From: a virus
IMG/VR virus record: IMGVR_UViG_3300035698_017044
Location: 1-21,712 of that record
Strand: one strand, 5' to 3'
Length of the DNA: 21,712 nucleotides
The notes below the pieces were generated by a model, which was given only the letters and a program-made list of their open reading frames with translations, made no database searches and was not told the DNA's origin. Positions within the stretch are counted from its first letter, which is position 1. Each line of letters begins with the position of its first letter. The position numbers and the translations under genes were made by a program. Positions 3,241 through 14,493 of this stretch are shown here, in pieces.

Positions 3241-3791
3241 GATGTTTTTGCTCCTAAATCAACGCCCATGAGTCCAGCCACTTCAAGTGCTTCAGGTGAA
3301 TGTTGCTGATGGTTTGCTGCTTTATTAAGTTCAACTGTGGATGTTTGTGTTTGAGTCAAAGCCGCAATTTTGGGAAGGCTTTCGAGCTGAGTTTTAACAA
3401 AATCAGGATTGGTTTTGGCTTGTTCCTTGTACCAGTTAATTGTGGCTTCACCAGTTAATCGACCATCACTACAAGCAGCTGTAATTAAATCTTCTAGTTC
3501 TTTGGTTTTATTTGCTGAAGCAGCATTATTGGCTTTTGCAATTGCTTCGCTATAAACCGCCATTGGTACATATTTTGTTGGGTCAGGGGCAGCTTGTGCA
3601 TTTGCAGCAGTTTTTACTTCAACTGCTTTATCAATGGCTTGGTCTAGCGTTTGCTCTGTTGAAGAAAGCGCTGTACCCAAAGCACCATCCATTTTGGTAA
3701 AAGCACTATTTGCAGCGGCAATGGCGTCTGTTTCTGTAACAGTTTCAGCCAGCCCCAGTTTTTTAAGCATGAGCTTGATAAACTCATTCAT
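3237..3791 (-). CDS. Internal in-frame start: scaffold protein, Mu gpZ-like
   Basis: Inside the protease frame, ATG 3791 (MNEFIKLMLKKLGLAE) is preceded by GAGGA at 3799-3803 with a 7-nt spacer, a better ribosome binding site than that of the full-length gene. Translation from it would give a 184-residue protein equal to the C-terminal scaffold half. In Mu the scaffold Z is produced from an in-frame start within I, so the same two-product arrangement is likely here. Its composition (Ala, Lys, Glu, Gln; no aromatic core) suits a coiled, proteolysed scaffold. The start signal is seen directly; production of a separate protein is inferred. Confidence 0.6.
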   Translation of the reverse strand: MNEFIKLMLKKLGLAETVTETDAIAAANSAFTKMDGALGTALSSTEQTLDQAIDKAVEVKTAANAQAAPDPTKYVPMAVYSEAIAKANNAASANKTKELEDLITAACSDGRLTGEATINWYKEQAKTNPDFVKTQLESLPKIAALTQTQTSTVELNKAANHQQHSPEALEVAGLMGVDLGAKTS

Positions 3792-4322
3792 TGTTGAATC
3801 CTCATGATCTGATTGGTATTGAGAGTTTTGAGACAAAAAGTTCTGAGCCGCAGCAGCCAGTTGTGCTTCGGGCAGTTGATCTAAATTCGGGGTATTGGTT
3901 AAAGCGACATGGAGAAGAGCAACGACATCGCCAGTTTTTGTATAGAGAAAAACTGGCGATAAATATAAATATTCATCCGACTCAATATAGCCTTTGGCTT
4001 TATTCGTCCATTCAAATTGAGTGCTACATAATCCAACTCCATTAATATATTCAAATGATTTTAACCAGCCCGCAGCGGGTGCTTCATTGCCTGTTTCTTG
4101 GGCTTTTAAAGTTGCATGCTCATAATCAATCACCATTTTGATATTGCGCTGGTTTAATACAGCCGCAATTTCACGACCACGCTCTGGCGTTAAATTCCAA
4201 TGTGGTGCGTCAAAAGGACGTCCATCAATCCCGCGAAAAATTCCTTCAGGAATGAGTACCAGACGGTTCGGTAAAACGGTTATGTCGAATGAGCATGAAG
4301 CTGCGAGTAGTGTTGTATTCAT
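3237..4322 (-). CDS. Mu gpI-like head maturation protease with C-terminal scaffold
   Basis: The protein is about 361 residues from ATG 4322 and belongs to the Mu I (protease) family. It opens with LPNRLVLIPEGIFRGIDGRPFD and GREIAAVLNQRNIKMVIDYEHATLKAQETGNEAPAAGWLKSFE, where the DYEHA-type stretch is the conserved protease region. It continues with GYIESDEYLYLSPVFLY and VALLHVALTNTPNLDQLPEA. From about residue 178 the sequence becomes Ala/Lys/Glu/Gln-rich and helical, as expected of a scaffold that shapes the procapsid and is then degraded. The frame extends upstream to TTG 4400, but ATG 4322 matches the family start; its ribosome binding site is weak, so the start is less certain than the product. 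It lies between gpG and DUF2190, as in Mu. Confidence 0.8.
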   Translation of the reverse strand: MNTTLLAASCSFDITVLPNRLVLIPEGIFRGIDGRPFDAPHWNLTPERGREIAAVLNQRNIKMVIDYEHATLKAQETGNEAPAAGWLKSFEYINGVGLCSTQFEWTNKAKGYIESDEYLYLSPVFLYTKTGDVVALLHVALTNTPNLDQLPEAQLAAAAQNFLSQNSQYQSDHEDSTMNEFIKLMLKKLGLAETVTETDAIAAANSAFTKMDGALGTALSSTEQTLDQAIDKAVEVKTAANAQAAPDPTKYVPMAVYSEAIAKANNAASANKTKELEDLITAACSDGRLTGEATINWYKEQAKTNPDFVKTQLESLPKIAALTQTQTSTVELNKAANHQQHSPEALEVAGLMGVDLGAKTS

Positions 4323-4380
4323 ACTGAGACTAAGGGTATTCAAGAGCCTACAGTATGAAATTGATCTACATAGAAGATTA

Positions 4381-4398
4381 GGCGGAAAGGTTTCCGCC
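4381..4398. repeat. Perfect inverted repeat GGCGGAAA-GG-TTTCCGCC
   Basis: Two 8-bp arms with a 2-bp centre sit in the leader of the protease gene, between the gpG stop and ATG 4322. No strong T-run follows on either strand, so a simple terminator is not evident. It is the most symmetrical of five related AG-YGGAA-N4-TTCC-type motifs in the window (also 8022, 9117, 10043 and 14478). Confidence 0.6.
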
Positions 4399-6331: not shown

Positions 6332-7963
6332 TTAGTCCTCTTTCACAGCCTTGCGACTTTCTTGGATTGAAAGACGTCCTAAAACATCACTGGCAAAAAT
6401 CAACTTCTCAAGATCATCTTGTAATGCTTCAAAATCTTTATTCGGGTAGATTTCTGCAAGCATTGCTAAAGCAGCGTCTATATTTTCCGCAGAACTTAAC
6501 TGAGCAATCAAAGTTGGTAAAAAGTTTTGAGCTTGTTGTTGTAAGTGTTGATTGTTGAGCTGCTGTTGCATTTGCTGATCCAGCAACATTTGCGCACGGA
6601 TAGCGGTGAGTTCAGCGGGATTGGTTGTAATGGGTAACTGACTAAGGGCAGCAAGATTCGGCAACCCCATGCCCGAATACAAAAATGAATTCGTAGCTTG
6701 AGCCACTTGGGGTTCAGTCTTTGCAAGAATAGGTTCATTATCATCAGCGGGTTCAGGTATGCCGAGTTTTTCTTGTGCCCATGACCGTGGGATTTTTAAA
6801 CCAATTTCTACAAGCTTTGGTAAAGATTCACTAAAAGTTGATAAATCTTCAGTATCTGAAGTATCAAATAGAAAATCAGGATAACGATCTGCTGTGATTT
6901 GTGGATAATTCAAACGCATTAAATGGCTGATCAAACTATCTGAAATAGATCGAGCAACTTGCTTTGCATCAGATTTAATAATTTTGGTTAAAGTTATTTC
7001 ATGAATATTACCCAATGCATTGGTGCTAGATTTGCCATCCGATTGAGACAATAAAGTACCGCCAACAATCACTTTTGACTCAGTCTTTTCACACCAATTG
7101 ACTAAATCAAAATGATTTTTTGTGTCGCCATCGGTTGCTGCCTGAAAATCTATCGACATCCCATTGGGAATAATGCCACCAGCATTACGTCCAATCATCA
7201 TGACAGCACGTAGCAATGTCATTTTTTCTTCATTGGTTGCGCCAGCTGGATACTTACCAATTTTATTAGGCAAACCATAAGTTTCCAAAAACTCCATGAC
7301 ATCGCGAATGCCGTAGTTCTTAAACAAAAACGGCCATGACAGAACTCGATGTAATCCCGAACGGGCAATATAGCCAGATTTGGCTTTATGACGATGAACC
7401 ACCCAGCCAAAATCCAAGAAATCTGCACCTTCAGGTGTGCCATCGTTTAAACGTAATACATTCGGCTGGTTGTATGGGGTTAAGAAATGGCGAGGTAAAA
7501 CATGATTAAAACTCTTAGGAATCCAAATATTACCAAGCCGCTGCCAATTGATTTCTTGTGCACTATAGCCATGACCCACAGCATCCAACGCATCAAATAA
7601 AAACATTTCAAAGTCTTTGATATCGTCAAGCCACTCATTGACTTCAGCTGCAATTTTGCGCTCTACATCATTGGCATTTCGGGGAGGAACAACAGACCAA
7701 GATAATCCATTGACACCTTTTTTTCGTTTATCCATTTCACTGAAGATATGACCGTCTCGTTCTTCCATATCAGAAAACAAATCAGCTTGAGCTTGTAGGT
7801 CGCCTTGTTCTGCGCCTGTCAATAACTGGTGTAAACGTTGGGGTGTCATTCCAACAACTGGATGTTCTTGCCACTGATTTGCTAACCAAGTGACTTCAGC
7901 TGTTTGAGTGGTTTCAAGTGCTGTTAAATCAGGTTTTTCAGAATTGGATTTTTTCTTAGCCAT
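6332..7963 (-). CDS. DUF935 portal protein, Mu gp29-like
   Basis: The protein is about 543 residues from ATG 7963 and belongs to the DUF935/Mu gp29 portal family. Visible landmarks include HPVVGMTPQRLHQLLTGAEQGDL and FSDMEERDGHIFSEMDKRKKGVNGLSW near the N-terminus, FGWVVHRHKAKSGY, GLHRVLSWPFLFKNYGIRDVMEFLETYGLPNKIGKYP in the middle, and the QSDGKSSTNALGNIHE region. A Gln/Asn-rich stretch (MLLDQQMQQQLNNQHLQQQ) near the C-terminus is likely flexible. The portal forms the dodecameric DNA channel at one head vertex. The frame continues to TTG 7978, but MAKKKSNSEKP is the more plausible start; neither has a clear ribosome binding site. In Mu, portal follows large terminase directly; here an accessory block has been inserted between them. 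Confidence 0.9.
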   Translation of the reverse strand: MAKKKSNSEKPDLTALETTQTAEVTWLANQWQEHPVVGMTPQRLHQLLTGAEQGDLQAQADLFSDMEERDGHIFSEMDKRKKGVNGLSWSVVPPRNANDVERKIAAEVNEWLDDIKDFEMFLFDALDAVGHGYSAQEINWQRLGNIWIPKSFNHVLPRHFLTPYNQPNVLRLNDGTPEGADFLDFGWVVHRHKAKSGYIARSGLHRVLSWPFLFKNYGIRDVMEFLETYGLPNKIGKYPAGATNEEKMTLLRAVMMIGRNAGGIIPNGMSIDFQAATDGDTKNHFDLVNWCEKTESKVIVGGTLLSQSDGKSSTNALGNIHEITLTKIIKSDAKQVARSISDSLISHLMRLNYPQITADRYPDFLFDTSDTEDLSTFSESLPKLVEIGLKIPRSWAQEKLGIPEPADDNEPILAKTEPQVAQATNSFLYSGMGLPNLAALSQLPITTNPAELTAIRAQMLLDQQMQQQLNNQHLQQQAQNFLPTLIAQLSSAENIDAALAMLAEIYPNKDFEALQDDLEKLIFASDVLGRLSIQESRKAVKED

Positions 7964-8021
7964 GAGATGCAAATACAAAGTGGATTTTGCATCATGTTGG
8001 ATTGATTAAAGGGAAATGATC

Positions 8022-8043
8022 AGACGGAAATGCTTCCACCGAG
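8022..8043. repeat. Border motif copy (AGACGGAAATGCTTCC)
   Basis: This 22-bp segment matches 9117-9138 at 19 of 22 positions in the same orientation. The pair flanks the methyltransferase gene. The core GGAA-ATGC-TTCC can form a small stem. It belongs to the five-member motif family discussed in the findings. Confidence 0.5.
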
Positions 8044-8186: not shown

Positions 8187-8957
8187 TTAGTAATTGGTGA
8201 TGATTAATTCCTGTTTTTGTTCCCGACCAGCGCCAGAGTTGCCCACAGTGTAATTAATTTTTGTGGTACTGATTTTAAGATCAGCAAAAGCATCTCGAAT
8301 GTCTGGATGATCATTGATTGACAACATGACTTTGCTTTGACAGGTTTTCATTAAGGTAGCCATCTTTAAATAATGATCCCATCCAAACTCAACCCCGTAC
8401 CCCGCCAATTTCCAATAAGGTGGGTCAGCATACATAAAACTATGAGGTCGGTCATACTTCGTCCAGCAATCATCCCAACTTAGGTTTTCAACTGTGACAC
8501 TTGAGAGCCTATAGTAAGCTTCGGTCAATTGATCTTCAATGCGCAAGAAACTCGGTGCTTTTGATGTCGTCGCTGTGCCAAATGTTTGACCAGAAGATTT
8601 TGCACCAAATGCAGTATGTTGCAGATAATAAAAACGAGCTGCACGTTGAATATCAGTCATTAAATCAGTACTGGCTGCTTTCAACCATTCAAACATTTGA
8701 CGACTTATAATTGCCCACTTAAATTGACGAATAAACTCTTCGAGATGATGTTGAACAACTCGATAGAGATTCACCAACTCGCCATTTACATCATTAATCA
8801 CTTCAACTTTTGAAGGTTGTTCTCGCATAAAAAACAGTGCTGCGCCACCAGCGAATAGCTCCACATAACATTTATGTTCAGGCATTTTTTGAATCAGTTG
8901 CGACACCAGACGACGTTTACCACCTAACCATGGAACAATTGGTTTAGTTTTCATCAT
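8187..8957 (-). CDS. D12-class (Dam-type) N6-adenine DNA methyltransferase
   Basis: The 256-residue protein has the D12/Dam-type order: PWLGGKRRL (9-17) near the N-terminus, the AdoMet-binding FAGGAAL (35-41), and the catalytic DPPY (178-181), with the target-recognition region between. It would methylate adenine at N6 in a short DNA site, possibly GATC, though specificity cannot be read from sequence. There is no restriction partner beside it, so it is probably a phage orphan enzyme that masks phage DNA from host restriction or alters host methylation. It lies on the late strand inside the accessory block between terminase and portal. AGGTGA precedes two adjacent ATGs (8957 and 8954); the second is better spaced. 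Both motif sets are intact, so an active enzyme is likely. Confidence 0.9.
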   Translation of the reverse strand: MMKTKPIVPWLGGKRRLVSQLIQKMPEHKCYVELFAGGAALFFMREQPSKVEVINDVNGELVNLYRVVQHHLEEFIRQFKWAIISRQMFEWLKAASTDLMTDIQRAARFYYLQHTAFGAKSSGQTFGTATTSKAPSFLRIEDQLTEAYYRLSSVTVENLSWDDCWTKYDRPHSFMYADPPYWKLAGYGVEFGWDHYLKMATLMKTCQSKVMLSINDHPDIRDAFADLKISTTKINYTVGNSGAGREQKQELIITNY

Positions 8958-9004
8958 TTCACCTACTGCAAAAGCTTTTCATTTTCTGATAGCCTCTATT
9001 TATC

Positions 9005-9129
9005 CTGTACAGGGTGCGAGGCTTTGCCTGCGGTAGTCGCTTACCAAAGGAGGCGGATCTTGCTCTAACAAGGTTCGTCGCCTCGTTTTATTATTTATGT
9101 TTATAACTTTCTAATAAGACGGAAATGAT
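9005..9129 (+). promoter_or_regulatory. Structured leader, copy 1, upstream of the DUF4145 gene
   Basis: This copy aligns along about 120 nt with 9941-10056. Its core is a 16-position stem, 9047-9062 with 9069-9084, closed over a CTCTAA loop (9063-9068), with 14 of 16 positions paired, followed by T-rich DNA (9085-9098). No + strand gene lies upstream, since the methyltransferase runs leftward from 8957. The hairpin therefore does not terminate a known gene: it is a leader/attenuator or the end of a small RNA. The conserved TATAAC-TTTCTAATAAGA stretch near 9103-9119 may hold the promoter, but I cannot place -35/-10 boxes confidently. Confidence 0.55.
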
Positions 9130-9138
9130 TCCAGTGAG
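9117..9138. repeat. Border motif copy (AGACGGAAATGATTCC)
   Basis: This segment is 19/22 identical to 8022-8043 in the same orientation, and lies between leader copy 1 and the start codon at 9147. It is the right-hand partner of the pair flanking the methyltransferase. Confidence 0.5.
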
Positions 9139-9146
9139 AATTGTGA

Positions 9147-9872
9147 ATGAGTACATTTGTTTTTGATTGCCCAAGCTGTAATGCTAAAAAAAGCACATTT
9201 GATGTTAAAGGACACACTCTAAGACCTTCATCTATTGAATATTTTAGTTGGGTTCTTTTTTCAACTTGTAGAGTTTGTTCTGAATCCTTTAGTGTTAATG
9301 CTGAAGTTGAATTACTTAAACATTCTACTTTAAAGCGACTCAATACTAGTAACCCTCAAGGAGTGTTTGTTAGTATCAAAAATTTTTTAGACACACATGT
9401 AGATATTTCTGGTTGGTTTGACGAATTTAATTATTCTCCAATTTTACCAAATGCAGAACTTCCACCAGAATATATTCCTTCCGATATTGAGGAAATTTTT
9501 AATGAAGCTGCTAAATGTTTTGCTATAGGTTGTTTCAATGCATCAGGAGCCATGTTTAGACTTTGTCTAGATATCACAACAAAACATATTCTTGTTCAAA
9601 ATCATAATTTAAGTCCATCAGCTAATGATAATAAATCTATACATAGTCGGTTGAATTGGATATTTAGTAAAAATATTTTACCTAGAGATTTAGAAGACTT
9701 ATCTAGAGGTATAAAAGATGACGGTAATGATGCTGCACACGATGGCACATTAACTAAAGATGATGCTGCAGATCTGCTAGACTTTACTTATATTCTACTA
9801 GAGAGAGTTTATACAGAGCCTGCTCGTGTTCAAAATGCGCAACAACGAAGAATAGCTCGTAGACAAAATTAA
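9147..9872 (+). CDS. Zinc-ribbon DUF4145 protein (accessory gene)
   Basis: In this 241-residue cytosolic protein, residues 8-44 carry two CxxC pairs (CPSC at 8-11 and CRVC at 41-44), a zinc ribbon. The rest fits DUF4145: a helical region (FNEAAKCFAIGCFNASGAMFRLCLDITTKHIL), LNWIFSKNILPRDLEDLSRGI, the hallmark GNDAAHDG (193-200), and TKDDAADLLDFTYILLERVYTEPARV. DUF4145 domains are often found with restriction or defence genes; the biochemical activity here is unknown. The gene is more AT-rich than its neighbours, stands on the strand opposite to the late operon, and has its own structured leader, all signs of a moron. The ribosome binding site is weak (GTGAG about 9 nt before ATG 9147). It may be expressed in the lysogen to exclude other phages; that is inference. 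Confidence 0.75.
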   Translation: MSTFVFDCPSCNAKKSTFDVKGHTLRPSSIEYFSWVLFSTCRVCSESFSVNAEVELLKHSTLKRLNTSNPQGVFVSIKNFLDTHVDISGWFDEFNYSPILPNAELPPEYIPSDIEEIFNEAAKCFAIGCFNASGAMFRLCLDITTKHILVQNHNLSPSANDNKSIHSRLNWIFSKNILPRDLEDLSRGIKDDGNDAAHDGTLTKDDAADLLDFTYILLERVYTEPARVQNAQQRRIARRQN

Positions 9873-9940
9873 TATTATATTGATTTTGATTATTTCAACA
9901 ACTGCAAAATAATTTCAATTTCTGGTGGTTTGAAGATAAT

Positions 9941-10056
9941 CTGTATAGTTTGACAAGGCTTTTACTGTGGTAGTGCATTTACTAAAGGTGATGAATCTTA
10001 CTCTAATAAGATTTATCACCTTATTTTTATAACCTTCTAATAAGATGGAAATTGAT
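9941..10056 (+). promoter_or_regulatory. Structured leader, copy 2, upstream of the membrane-protein gene
   Basis: This is the homologue of 9005-9129. Positions 9985-10000 pair with 10007-10022 as 16 continuous base pairs (one G-U) over the same CTCTAA loop (10001-10006), followed by ATTTTTAT. Relative to copy 1 the stem contains compensatory changes: C-G replaced by T-A at 9992/10015, and G-C by A-T at 10000/10007. Single changes elsewhere keep pairing through wobbles. A TTGACA at 9950-9955 resembles a -35 box, but no good -10 lies 16-18 nt downstream and the hexamer is not conserved in copy 1. The hairpin could also act as terminator for the preceding DUF4145 gene. Confidence 0.55.
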
Positions 10057-10058
10057 AC

Positions 10059-10817
10059 ATGTCTGTAATTAAAACATATTCCAAAATTTTACCCTTGGTA
10101 TTTGTATCTTTCCTATATTTAATTTCTATATTAATTTTGGGACTTGGTAACATTCCAGAAATAAAAGAAATGAAACCTAATGAATGGGGAGATTTCTTAG
10201 CTGGTACTTTTGCACCATTAGCTTTTATGTGGTTAGTATTTGGATATAAGCAACAAGGTGAGGAACTTAAACAAAATACAATAGCTCTGCGTTTACAAGC
10301 TGATGAGCTAAAAAACAATGTTGAGCAGCAAAAAATATTAGTTGCCGCTGCTAAAGATGAGTTGGCTCTAATTCAAAACAAAGATAAACGTCAAATAAAA
10401 TTAGAAACTCTTCAAGCTCAACCTTACTTTCATATTGATCAAATTACTTTAGCAACACATAGGTTGAATAATGAAATACAACTACATATTCATTTAAGCT
10501 TTAAGAATAGTAGAGCTTTATGCAGAAGTTTGTATTTTCTTTATAGTTTAGATGATATGGAGGAAAATCATATTTTAACTCATCAAAAATTTTCTATAGT
10601 TGATGGCGATATTAATGTAAATTATAGAACTAATATTATGATTCCTATAACCAATGAAGATTTAAGCTACTTCCCTAAAAAAATATTTTTAAATTTTAAC
10701 TACACTGACTTATATGATATTCCACAAATACAAAGTCTCTTGTTAACAATTGATGAAAAAATTCCTGATCATGAAAACCAACCATATCAGTGGATGATTA
10801 AATCTTATACTCATTAA
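10059..10817 (+). CDS. Two-TM coiled-coil membrane protein (accessory gene)
   Basis: The 252-residue protein has two hydrophobic segments: residues about 9-29 (ILPLVFVSFLYLISILILGLG) and 46-63 (FLAGTFAPLAFMWLVFGY), joined by a short polar loop with PNEWGDF. A coiled coil of about 50 residues follows (QQGEELKQNTIALRLQADELKNNVEQQ onward), then a soluble C-terminal domain of some 130 residues. The W-G-D-F-L-A-G-x-F-A-P-L-A-F motif is common in bacterial and prophage proteins of unknown function. Low GC, own leader and strand opposite to late genes mark it as a moron; a membrane sensor or exclusion protein is possible but unproven. Its stop and that of the convergent large terminase share the palindrome TTAA at 10814-10817, a very tight insertion. 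Confidence 0.7.
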   Translation: MSVIKTYSKILPLVFVSFLYLISILILGLGNIPEIKEMKPNEWGDFLAGTFAPLAFMWLVFGYKQQGEELKQNTIALRLQADELKNNVEQQKILVAAAKDELALIQNKDKRQIKLETLQAQPYFHIDQITLATHRLNNEIQLHIHLSFKNSRALCRSLYFLYSLDDMEENHILTHQKFSIVDGDINVNYRTNIMIPITNEDLSYFPKKIFLNFNYTDLYDIPQIQSLLLTIDEKIPDHENQPYQWMIKSYTH

Positions 10818-12364
10818 AGACATCCTACATCACTAACCCAATCAAAATCTTCAGGGTTCATTTCCATTTGCTCATGGGAAGGAAGTGCAATAAATTCAAT
10901 CGGTGTAGATGGGTTCTTACTCGCATAATCAGCCAATAAATGTGCAATACCACTATCACCGTGACGGTCTTTATTATTGCTGTTTGATCCAGTTGCGGGA
11001 ATACGCGCCACACCCTTGATCATAATAAAAGCGCGATGGTCTTCAATGATGTCCTGATCTGCGGGCATATTGACAATATCACCGTCTTCAAGTGCAGCTT
11101 TAAAATGTGGTGTATGTTCTCGATACCATGAATCTGTCAGCATAATTGCTTCAATACGGTCACCGAATTGGACTTGCATTGCTTCAGCTAAGAAGCCACC
11201 ATTTCCGCCAGCATCATGTGCGCCTTTGCTAAAGTTGGGTAACATTGCCACAATCAACTTTAAAAATTCTTCTTGTTGCTTATAAGGCGTTTTAAACATT
11301 TCAAAGACAAAGGGACAAGTCTTTTTCATGTTTTGTTCTTCAGCTAAAAGCCAAAATGAACAGGCGTTTTTTTTACGCGCAAAGTCTAGACCATAATAAC
11401 TTTTAATCTTCGGATTTAATTTTTCTAATAAAGGTTTTAGATTTTCATTGAAAAACTCTAGTACTTCGGCATTACGTGTATCTTCACTGACCTGCTCGAA
11501 ATTATCCCAACCTTCAGGTGCATTAAATCGAATGACTGGAATATCATCCTTTTTACGTGCATCCAATAATGCTTGGCTTAACCATTTACCGCCACTTTTT
11601 GAAGGAATTACATCAAGTTCCTCACCTGAAGCATCACCATAAAATTTATAAATTCCCTCAACCCATATTTTTTCTTCAACAATGTCATACTTTATTTTTT
11701 TGCGTAGGCAAACACGTTTGTATAGCCCCTGATCTACAGCTTCTTTAAATGTTGTACGATGAACAGTACCTTTACGTTTCCCTGATCGGACTTCTTTAAT
11801 CAGCTCATTGAATGGATTATCTTCACCATCATGTGTACTAATTACCCGAACACATCCACCCCAAATAAGTAATGCAATTGCAGCTTTTAACAATTCAGCT
11901 TGATCATCATGGAAAGCAAACTCATCCATGACGACACGTCCTTGCCGACCACGCATGTTGGAAGGTCTGGAAGTTAAAGCTTCAATTCGTTTGCCTGATT
12001 TTGGAAAACGAATAATATAGGTTTGGATATGTTTATCACCATCCTCCCATAAACCTTCTTCAACATCACAACATGCAGCATCAAAGGCTTTTGCCCACAT
12101 TGCACAAGCCTGAATAAATTCGACTGTCATATCTTTATTGTAGCCAAGATAATAACAATTCTGTCCACCTTCACTTGCCGCATCCAATACAGCATCGGCA
12201 GCTTCTGCCCAAGTTAAACCGATTCGACGTGATTTTTCTGCAATTTTTAGTTGGCTTTTATCTTCAATCCATGCCTGTTGATATGGGAGTAATACACTAG
12301 GAACATCACTGTAGCCCGCAAAGTTAAGCAACTCTTTAGGGTCAGTGACTTTAATCTCATTCAT
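10814..12364 (-). CDS. Large terminase subunit, Mu gp28-like
   Basis: This is the 516-residue DNA-packaging motor. The ATPase half has a Walker A-type EKSRRIGLT (43-51), the arginine-rich variant usual in terminases, and Walker B VVMDEFA (144-150) with the catalytic Glu; ISTHDG (175-180) follows as the coupling motif. The nuclease half shows acidic residues D327 in GLDFAR, D384 in HDAGGNGG and D470 in RHGDSG, in the expected order. The protein cuts and pumps DNA into the procapsid through the portal; Mu-type terminases package headful into flanking host DNA. The gene overlaps the small terminase stop by 4 nt (ATGA at 12361-12364). It ends head-on against the + strand membrane-protein gene. 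All motifs are intact. Confidence 0.92.
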   Translation of the reverse strand: MNEIKVTDPKELLNFAGYSDVPSVLLPYQQAWIEDKSQLKIAEKSRRIGLTWAEAADAVLDAASEGGQNCYYLGYNKDMTVEFIQACAMWAKAFDAACCDVEEGLWEDGDKHIQTYIIRFPKSGKRIEALTSRPSNMRGRQGRVVMDEFAFHDDQAELLKAAIALLIWGGCVRVISTHDGEDNPFNELIKEVRSGKRKGTVHRTTFKEAVDQGLYKRVCLRKKIKYDIVEEKIWVEGIYKFYGDASGEELDVIPSKSGGKWLSQALLDARKKDDIPVIRFNAPEGWDNFEQVSEDTRNAEVLEFFNENLKPLLEKLNPKIKSYYGLDFARKKNACSFWLLAEEQNMKKTCPFVFEMFKTPYKQQEEFLKLIVAMLPNFSKGAHDAGGNGGFLAEAMQVQFGDRIEAIMLTDSWYREHTPHFKAALEDGDIVNMPADQDIIEDHRAFIMIKGVARIPATGSNSNNKDRHGDSGIAHLLADYASKNPSTPIEFIALPSHEQMEMNPEDFDWVSDVGCL

Positions 12365-14446: not shown

Positions 14447-14477
14447 TCATATTGCTGCTTTAGCTGCTTTTAAATTA

Positions 14478-14493
14478 GGCGGAAGTGCTTCCG
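14478..14493. repeat. Border motif copy (GGCGGAAGTGCTTCCG)
   Basis: The inverted repeat CGGAA-GTGC-TTCCG lies 2 nt past the lipoprotein stop codon and before the terminator. It is related to copies at 4379, 8022, 9117 and 10043. It stands at the border between the lysogeny and lysis modules. Confidence 0.5.

Follow-up and report, generated by a model that had tools for sequence, protein, structure and literature searches.

Known systems resembling the locus studied here are found in phages Mu and P2. In Mu, the Mor dyad is located at -43.5 and the C protein moves RNA polymerase from the divergent promoter momP2 to momP1 (PMC4287176). In P2, the interval between the replication endonuclease and the portal gene is a published defence hotspot (PMC9519451). 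At the protein level, DUF4145 is counted among the members of the HEPN superfamily (PMC3710099), and a DUF4145-like N-terminus is present in BxaP, an anti-phage protein (PMC10799925).

The window, that is, the whole stretch of DNA analysed, comes from a Mu-like virus record (IMGVR_UViG_3300035698_017044), of which it is a 21.7-kb fragment (21,712 nucleotides). Here, 2.8 kb separate the terminase from the portal; dam occupies the late strand of this interval, and the opposite strand carries two AT-rich genes (Table 1). The initial annotation had described this accessory block, and its ORF positions as well as the opposite orientation of the two + genes were borne out by the ORFs and family matches. 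The AT-richness was also confirmed, the two + genes having a GC content of 32.4% and 28.1% versus 38.4% for the window. Among named phages, the closest Dam proteins belonged to Acinetobacter phages (63% identity), and a host search by DNA match returned no match.

Table 1. Coordinates of the features of the terminase–portal block and of the predicted late promoters in the window
Feature	Coordinates	Strand	Evidence
Terminase large subunit	10814..12364	-	PHROGs phrog_2, 6.9e-33; 3' end is one slot border in 36 records
Cargo gene 1, family F1: two-TM, long coiled coil, C-terminal beta-sandwich	10059..10817	+	phrog_9267, 2.9e-42; AlphaFold model
Decayed second copy of late promoter and dam leader	9884..10058	-	RNA model match 10030-9924, 81 bits
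Cargo gene 2, family F3: N-terminal zinc-ribbon-like domain and DUF4145 (HEPN-like fold)	9147..9872	+	DUF4145 profile, 7.9e-11
Late-promoter dyad GGAA-N4-TTCC-NYCT upstream of dam	9117..9132	-	Motif; -10-like AATAAT at 9095-9090
Structured 5' leader of dam	8988..9092	-	RNA model, 100 bits; compensatory changes across 34 sequences
dam, Dam-type (D12 class) DNA adenine methyltransferase	8187..8957	-	MethyltransfD12, 2.5e-28
Late-promoter dyad upstream of portal	8022..8037	-	Motif search
Portal, other block border	6332..7978	-	Portal_Mu, 1.1e-92
Late-promoter dyad preceding the 13964-14437 gene, where the lysis/late region starts	14477..14492	-	Motif search
Late-promoter dyad preceding the 3237-4400 gene, in protease/scaffold position	4380..4395	-	Motif search

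We have collected close relatives through Dam and through the leader, and compared the 36 records in which the stretch from terminase to leader was complete (27 distinct at 95% identity); these were picked mainly by the leader pattern and do not represent a sample of all relatives. The gene order in close relatives was terminase, opposite-strand cargo, leader, dam and portal. In four of the 36 records the slot was empty; the others contained six cargo families in various combinations, almost all of them oriented opposite to the late genes: the two-TM coiled-coil family F1 in 21 records, F2 in 10, and the DUF4145 family F3, F4, the HNH family F5 and F6 in two records each. Cargo GC content was 32.6%, compared to 42.6% for the upstream terminase stretch. 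Judged by its conserved flanks and its exchangeable or absent content, the slot is a cargo (moron) hotspot in a group of Mu-like prophages. The search for alternative cargo proposed in the initial annotation thus returned a varied set. The dam gene had been counted as part of the accessory block; it does lie there, but on the late strand and behind a leader conserved in the group, so that the variable cargo consists of the two + genes only. The location inside the head operon could suggest that the cargo encodes late-expressed assembly or packaging functions; with genes on the opposite strand, missing from four relatives and swapped for unrelated ones, this explanation is already largely refuted and we regard it as hardly tenable.

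Late-strand ORFs of at least 80 residues were confined to two slots, one of which contained transposase-like ORFs. In the slot of L201, transposase-like ORFs were inserted on the late strand between -2217 and -1072 from the leader anchor. L068 breaks the orientation rule with a late-strand membrane-type gene of 152 residues (3485-3943). Four two-TM paralogues were found in the single slot of L285 (3974-7426), which had no dam match, and two each in L261, L294 and L068. Two-TM cargo in records lacking a dam match was also seen in L260, L263 and L294.

The Dam proteins of some relatives were 89-91% identical to that of the window and were encoded beside terminases just 35% identical to the window's, and identical cargo families occurred beside both terminase lineages (35% and 71-81% identity). 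The dam/cargo module therefore moves between phages. The initial annotation considered terminase and portal to be normally adjacent in Mu-like phages. This holds for more distant ones (PhiKM, KP12, Halomonas-type), with the exception of L005, where other genes lie in between, whereas a gap is usual within this phage's own group.

The two + genes had also been credited with matching leaders. The two intergenic stretches do match (69% identity over 177 bases), but the main reading direction of the repeat is that of the - strand, and the alignment with relatives showed that the conserved sequence ends at the dam start codon. The element therefore belongs to dam, as its late promoter and 5' leader, and does not lead the + genes. 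The conserved sequence opens with GGAA-N4-TTCC-NYCT-NA. This motif had 42 sites in seven records, six per record and always on the late strand, one of which may fall inside coding sequence, against 0 in the reversed control. The window contained four exact sites, each of them on the late strand (4380, 8022, 9117 and 14477), and eight matches with at most one mismatch versus 0.5 expected. A -10-like NAnnnT followed the dyad at fixed spacing (A in 91% and T in 97%), placing the dyad near -44.5. A Mor-family gene (PF08765) was encoded in seven of nine records; it was absent from the window, which is itself a fragment. Having a dyad around -44 and a -10 NAnnnT in several late-strand copies, together with an encoded Mor-family activator, the motif is compatible with a Mor/C-type promoter and we infer that it is an activator-type late promoter predicted to drive dam. 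A hairpin, mostly followed by a T-run, coincided with the late start predicted ahead of the lysis region, both at position 14477 of the window and in L143-L148.

The leader RNA, which lies downstream of the late promoter and is ~75 bases long, has a closing helix around two inner hairpins. In the alignment, 97.5% of the cells were paired and double changes occurred in 12 of 19 pairs versus 1.9 in shuffles. One strong copy preceded dam in every dam-bearing relative searched. An Rfam search with the leader gave nothing above gathering scores, just chance matches below, and its DNA had no match among phages and plasmids. In L003 (3821-4604), the same leader precedes a Com-like zinc-ribbon gene (PF10122), and another DNA methyltransferase stands in place of dam. 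Com was considered as a general partner of the dam leader and rejected, as it was found in this record only.

The window (81 bits), L173 (30 bits) and L285 (32 bits) had decayed leader copies with cargo genes on either side. The copy in the window has lost the dam start codon, and the first dam codons are still recognisable, adjoining the end of the DUF4145 gene. Such copies may represent scars of cargo addition. Their position, separating the two genes in the window and flanking the DUF4145 gene in L173, points to separate arrival of the DUF4145 and two-TM genes. This bears on the proposal that the two proteins form one two-part system, for which speaks the presence of an adjacent two-TM gene in both slots holding a DUF4145 gene. 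Consistent co-occurrence was, however, not observed: the two-TM gene was found without DUF4145 in 19 of 21 records, and no two-TM gene lay near DUF4145 in P2-like loci. Hence, the two-part system put forward in the initial annotation is not supported, and we consider it very improbable.

With regard to function, the DUF4145 relatives were mostly in P2-like prophages, and in 31 of the 43 retrieved loci the relative adjoined a P2-type portal gene and was convergent with it. The best match of the DUF4145 protein in the defence library was PADLOC PD-T7-4 (PDLC04109; 6.8e-10, 36.8 bits), a partial match covering only positions 60-181 of the 211 of the profile. The structural model, of good confidence, had an HEPN-like fold with top PDB matches to 2q00 and 1o3u (probability 1.00, E about 0.03), the latter an annotated HEPN protein; no solved relatives were found by sequence. 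The protein resembles HEPN-superfamily DUF4145 proteins in its Pfam domain and predicted fold and differs from them in lacking the R of the catalytic R-x4-6-H: the invariant motif is G-N-D-x-A-H, with no R 5-7 residues before H and K/R further upstream. The DUF4145 gene first met in a P2-like prophage (L229) was present in 42 of 5,426 complete E. coli genomes (e.g. NC_011993.1, 2758544-2759242).

The two-TM protein has a conserved N-x-x-GDFLAG-x-F-x-PLAF motif between its helices, along with the coiled coil and the beta-sandwich (AlphaFold model, mean pLDDT 81). It belongs with the phrog_9267 two-TM coiled-coil proteins, a family without known function. Its relatives are widespread, occurring in many unrelated kinds of prophage. 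No model of the defence library matched the family, no solved relatives were found by sequence, and the fold search with the beta domain gave generic beta-sandwich matches only. The defence or exclusion role initially proposed for both genes received indirect support from the DUF4145 protein, through the P2 portal hotspot, the PD-T7-4 profile and the HEPN-like fold.

The wide distribution of the two-TM family, with no link to known defence genes here, would also fit lysogenic-conversion genes that do not act against phages but alter the fitness, membrane or stress physiology of the host, and variable AT-rich genes on the opposite strand are the general moron pattern. We regard this as a real possibility, albeit a minor one, given the concentration of DUF4145 relatives in the P2 defence hotspot, the PD-T7-4 match, and the presence among the other cargo families of an HNH nuclease resembling ZorE. 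This HNH gene was seen in L190 (5379-6053) and L201 (6557-7228), where the ZorE-like match was weak (4.8e-7 and 7.5e-5). The DNA-modification enzyme in the same slot, and the Com-like gene and different methyltransferase in dam's place in L003, could instead indicate counter-defence, with dam and the cargo shielding the phage itself on entry from host restriction, CRISPR or abortive systems. This is unlikely, considering that the cargo is directed away from the late operon and outside late promoter control, and that an HEPN-fold protein would suit an effector better than an inhibitor.

We therefore favour, with modest confidence, a reading in which each of the two + genes is accessory cargo (a moron) in its own right, located in a hotspot bounded by the end of the terminase gene and by a mom-type late promoter driving dam, and in which they most likely protect the lysogen from other phages. 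If the cargo has such anti-phage activity, the DUF4145 protein could be a stand-alone zinc-ribbon/HEPN-fold effector acting on RNA or translation in infected cells, and the two-TM protein an effector of exclusion or abortive infection, anchored in the membrane and using its C-terminal beta domain to sense or bind a target. The cargo would be expressed in the lysogen, as the initial annotation had proposed, although the sequence lent no support to this: no significant sigma-70-like promoter was found on the cargo strand in 21 upstream regions (median p 0.64). In most slots, a constant distance separated the cargo start codons from the leader, and they often followed the dyad immediately. Late in lysis, a Mor/C-type activator would occupy the dyad and switch transcription to dam and away from the cargo, as C shifts the polymerase in Mu. 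Starting from the position of the cargo start codons at the dyad, which is read directly from the sequences, we put forward as a tentative and rather doubtful extension that the slot may be a built-in lysogeny/lysis defence switch, in which the phage's own late activator at the dyad overlapping the cargo start would shut the cargo off and turn dam on via the structured leader. The conserved leader would be the recombination joint by which cassettes are added and cargo arrays grow, leaving decayed scars.

The regulatory neighbourhood is the new part of this finding. The evidence indicates a hotspot where a group of Mu-like prophages carries cargo from several small families of unassigned function; it also links this hotspot to a definable late regulon and to an RNA leader matching no Rfam family at gathering score.

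Compared with P2 prophage defence hotspot #1 (PMC9519451), the slot shares variable cargo beside and convergent with a portal/terminase gene, DUF4145 relatives included; it differs in belonging to another phage family, Mu-like phages, and in adjoining an activator-type late promoter and a structured dam leader. Compared with the Mu mom operon and its C/Mor-activated promoters (PMC4287176, PMC4461284), it has dam instead of mom, another dyad sequence to which activator binding is only predicted, and Com restricted to L003. Both have a DNA-modification gene behind its own late promoter, and the position of the dyad resembles that of the Mor site in the Mu middle promoter (near -44 here versus -43.5), with a Mor-family gene present. 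A divergent unit also lies at the same place in both, the cargo here and the momP2 unit in Mu, which suggests a possible use for divergent units at mom-type promoters such as momP2.
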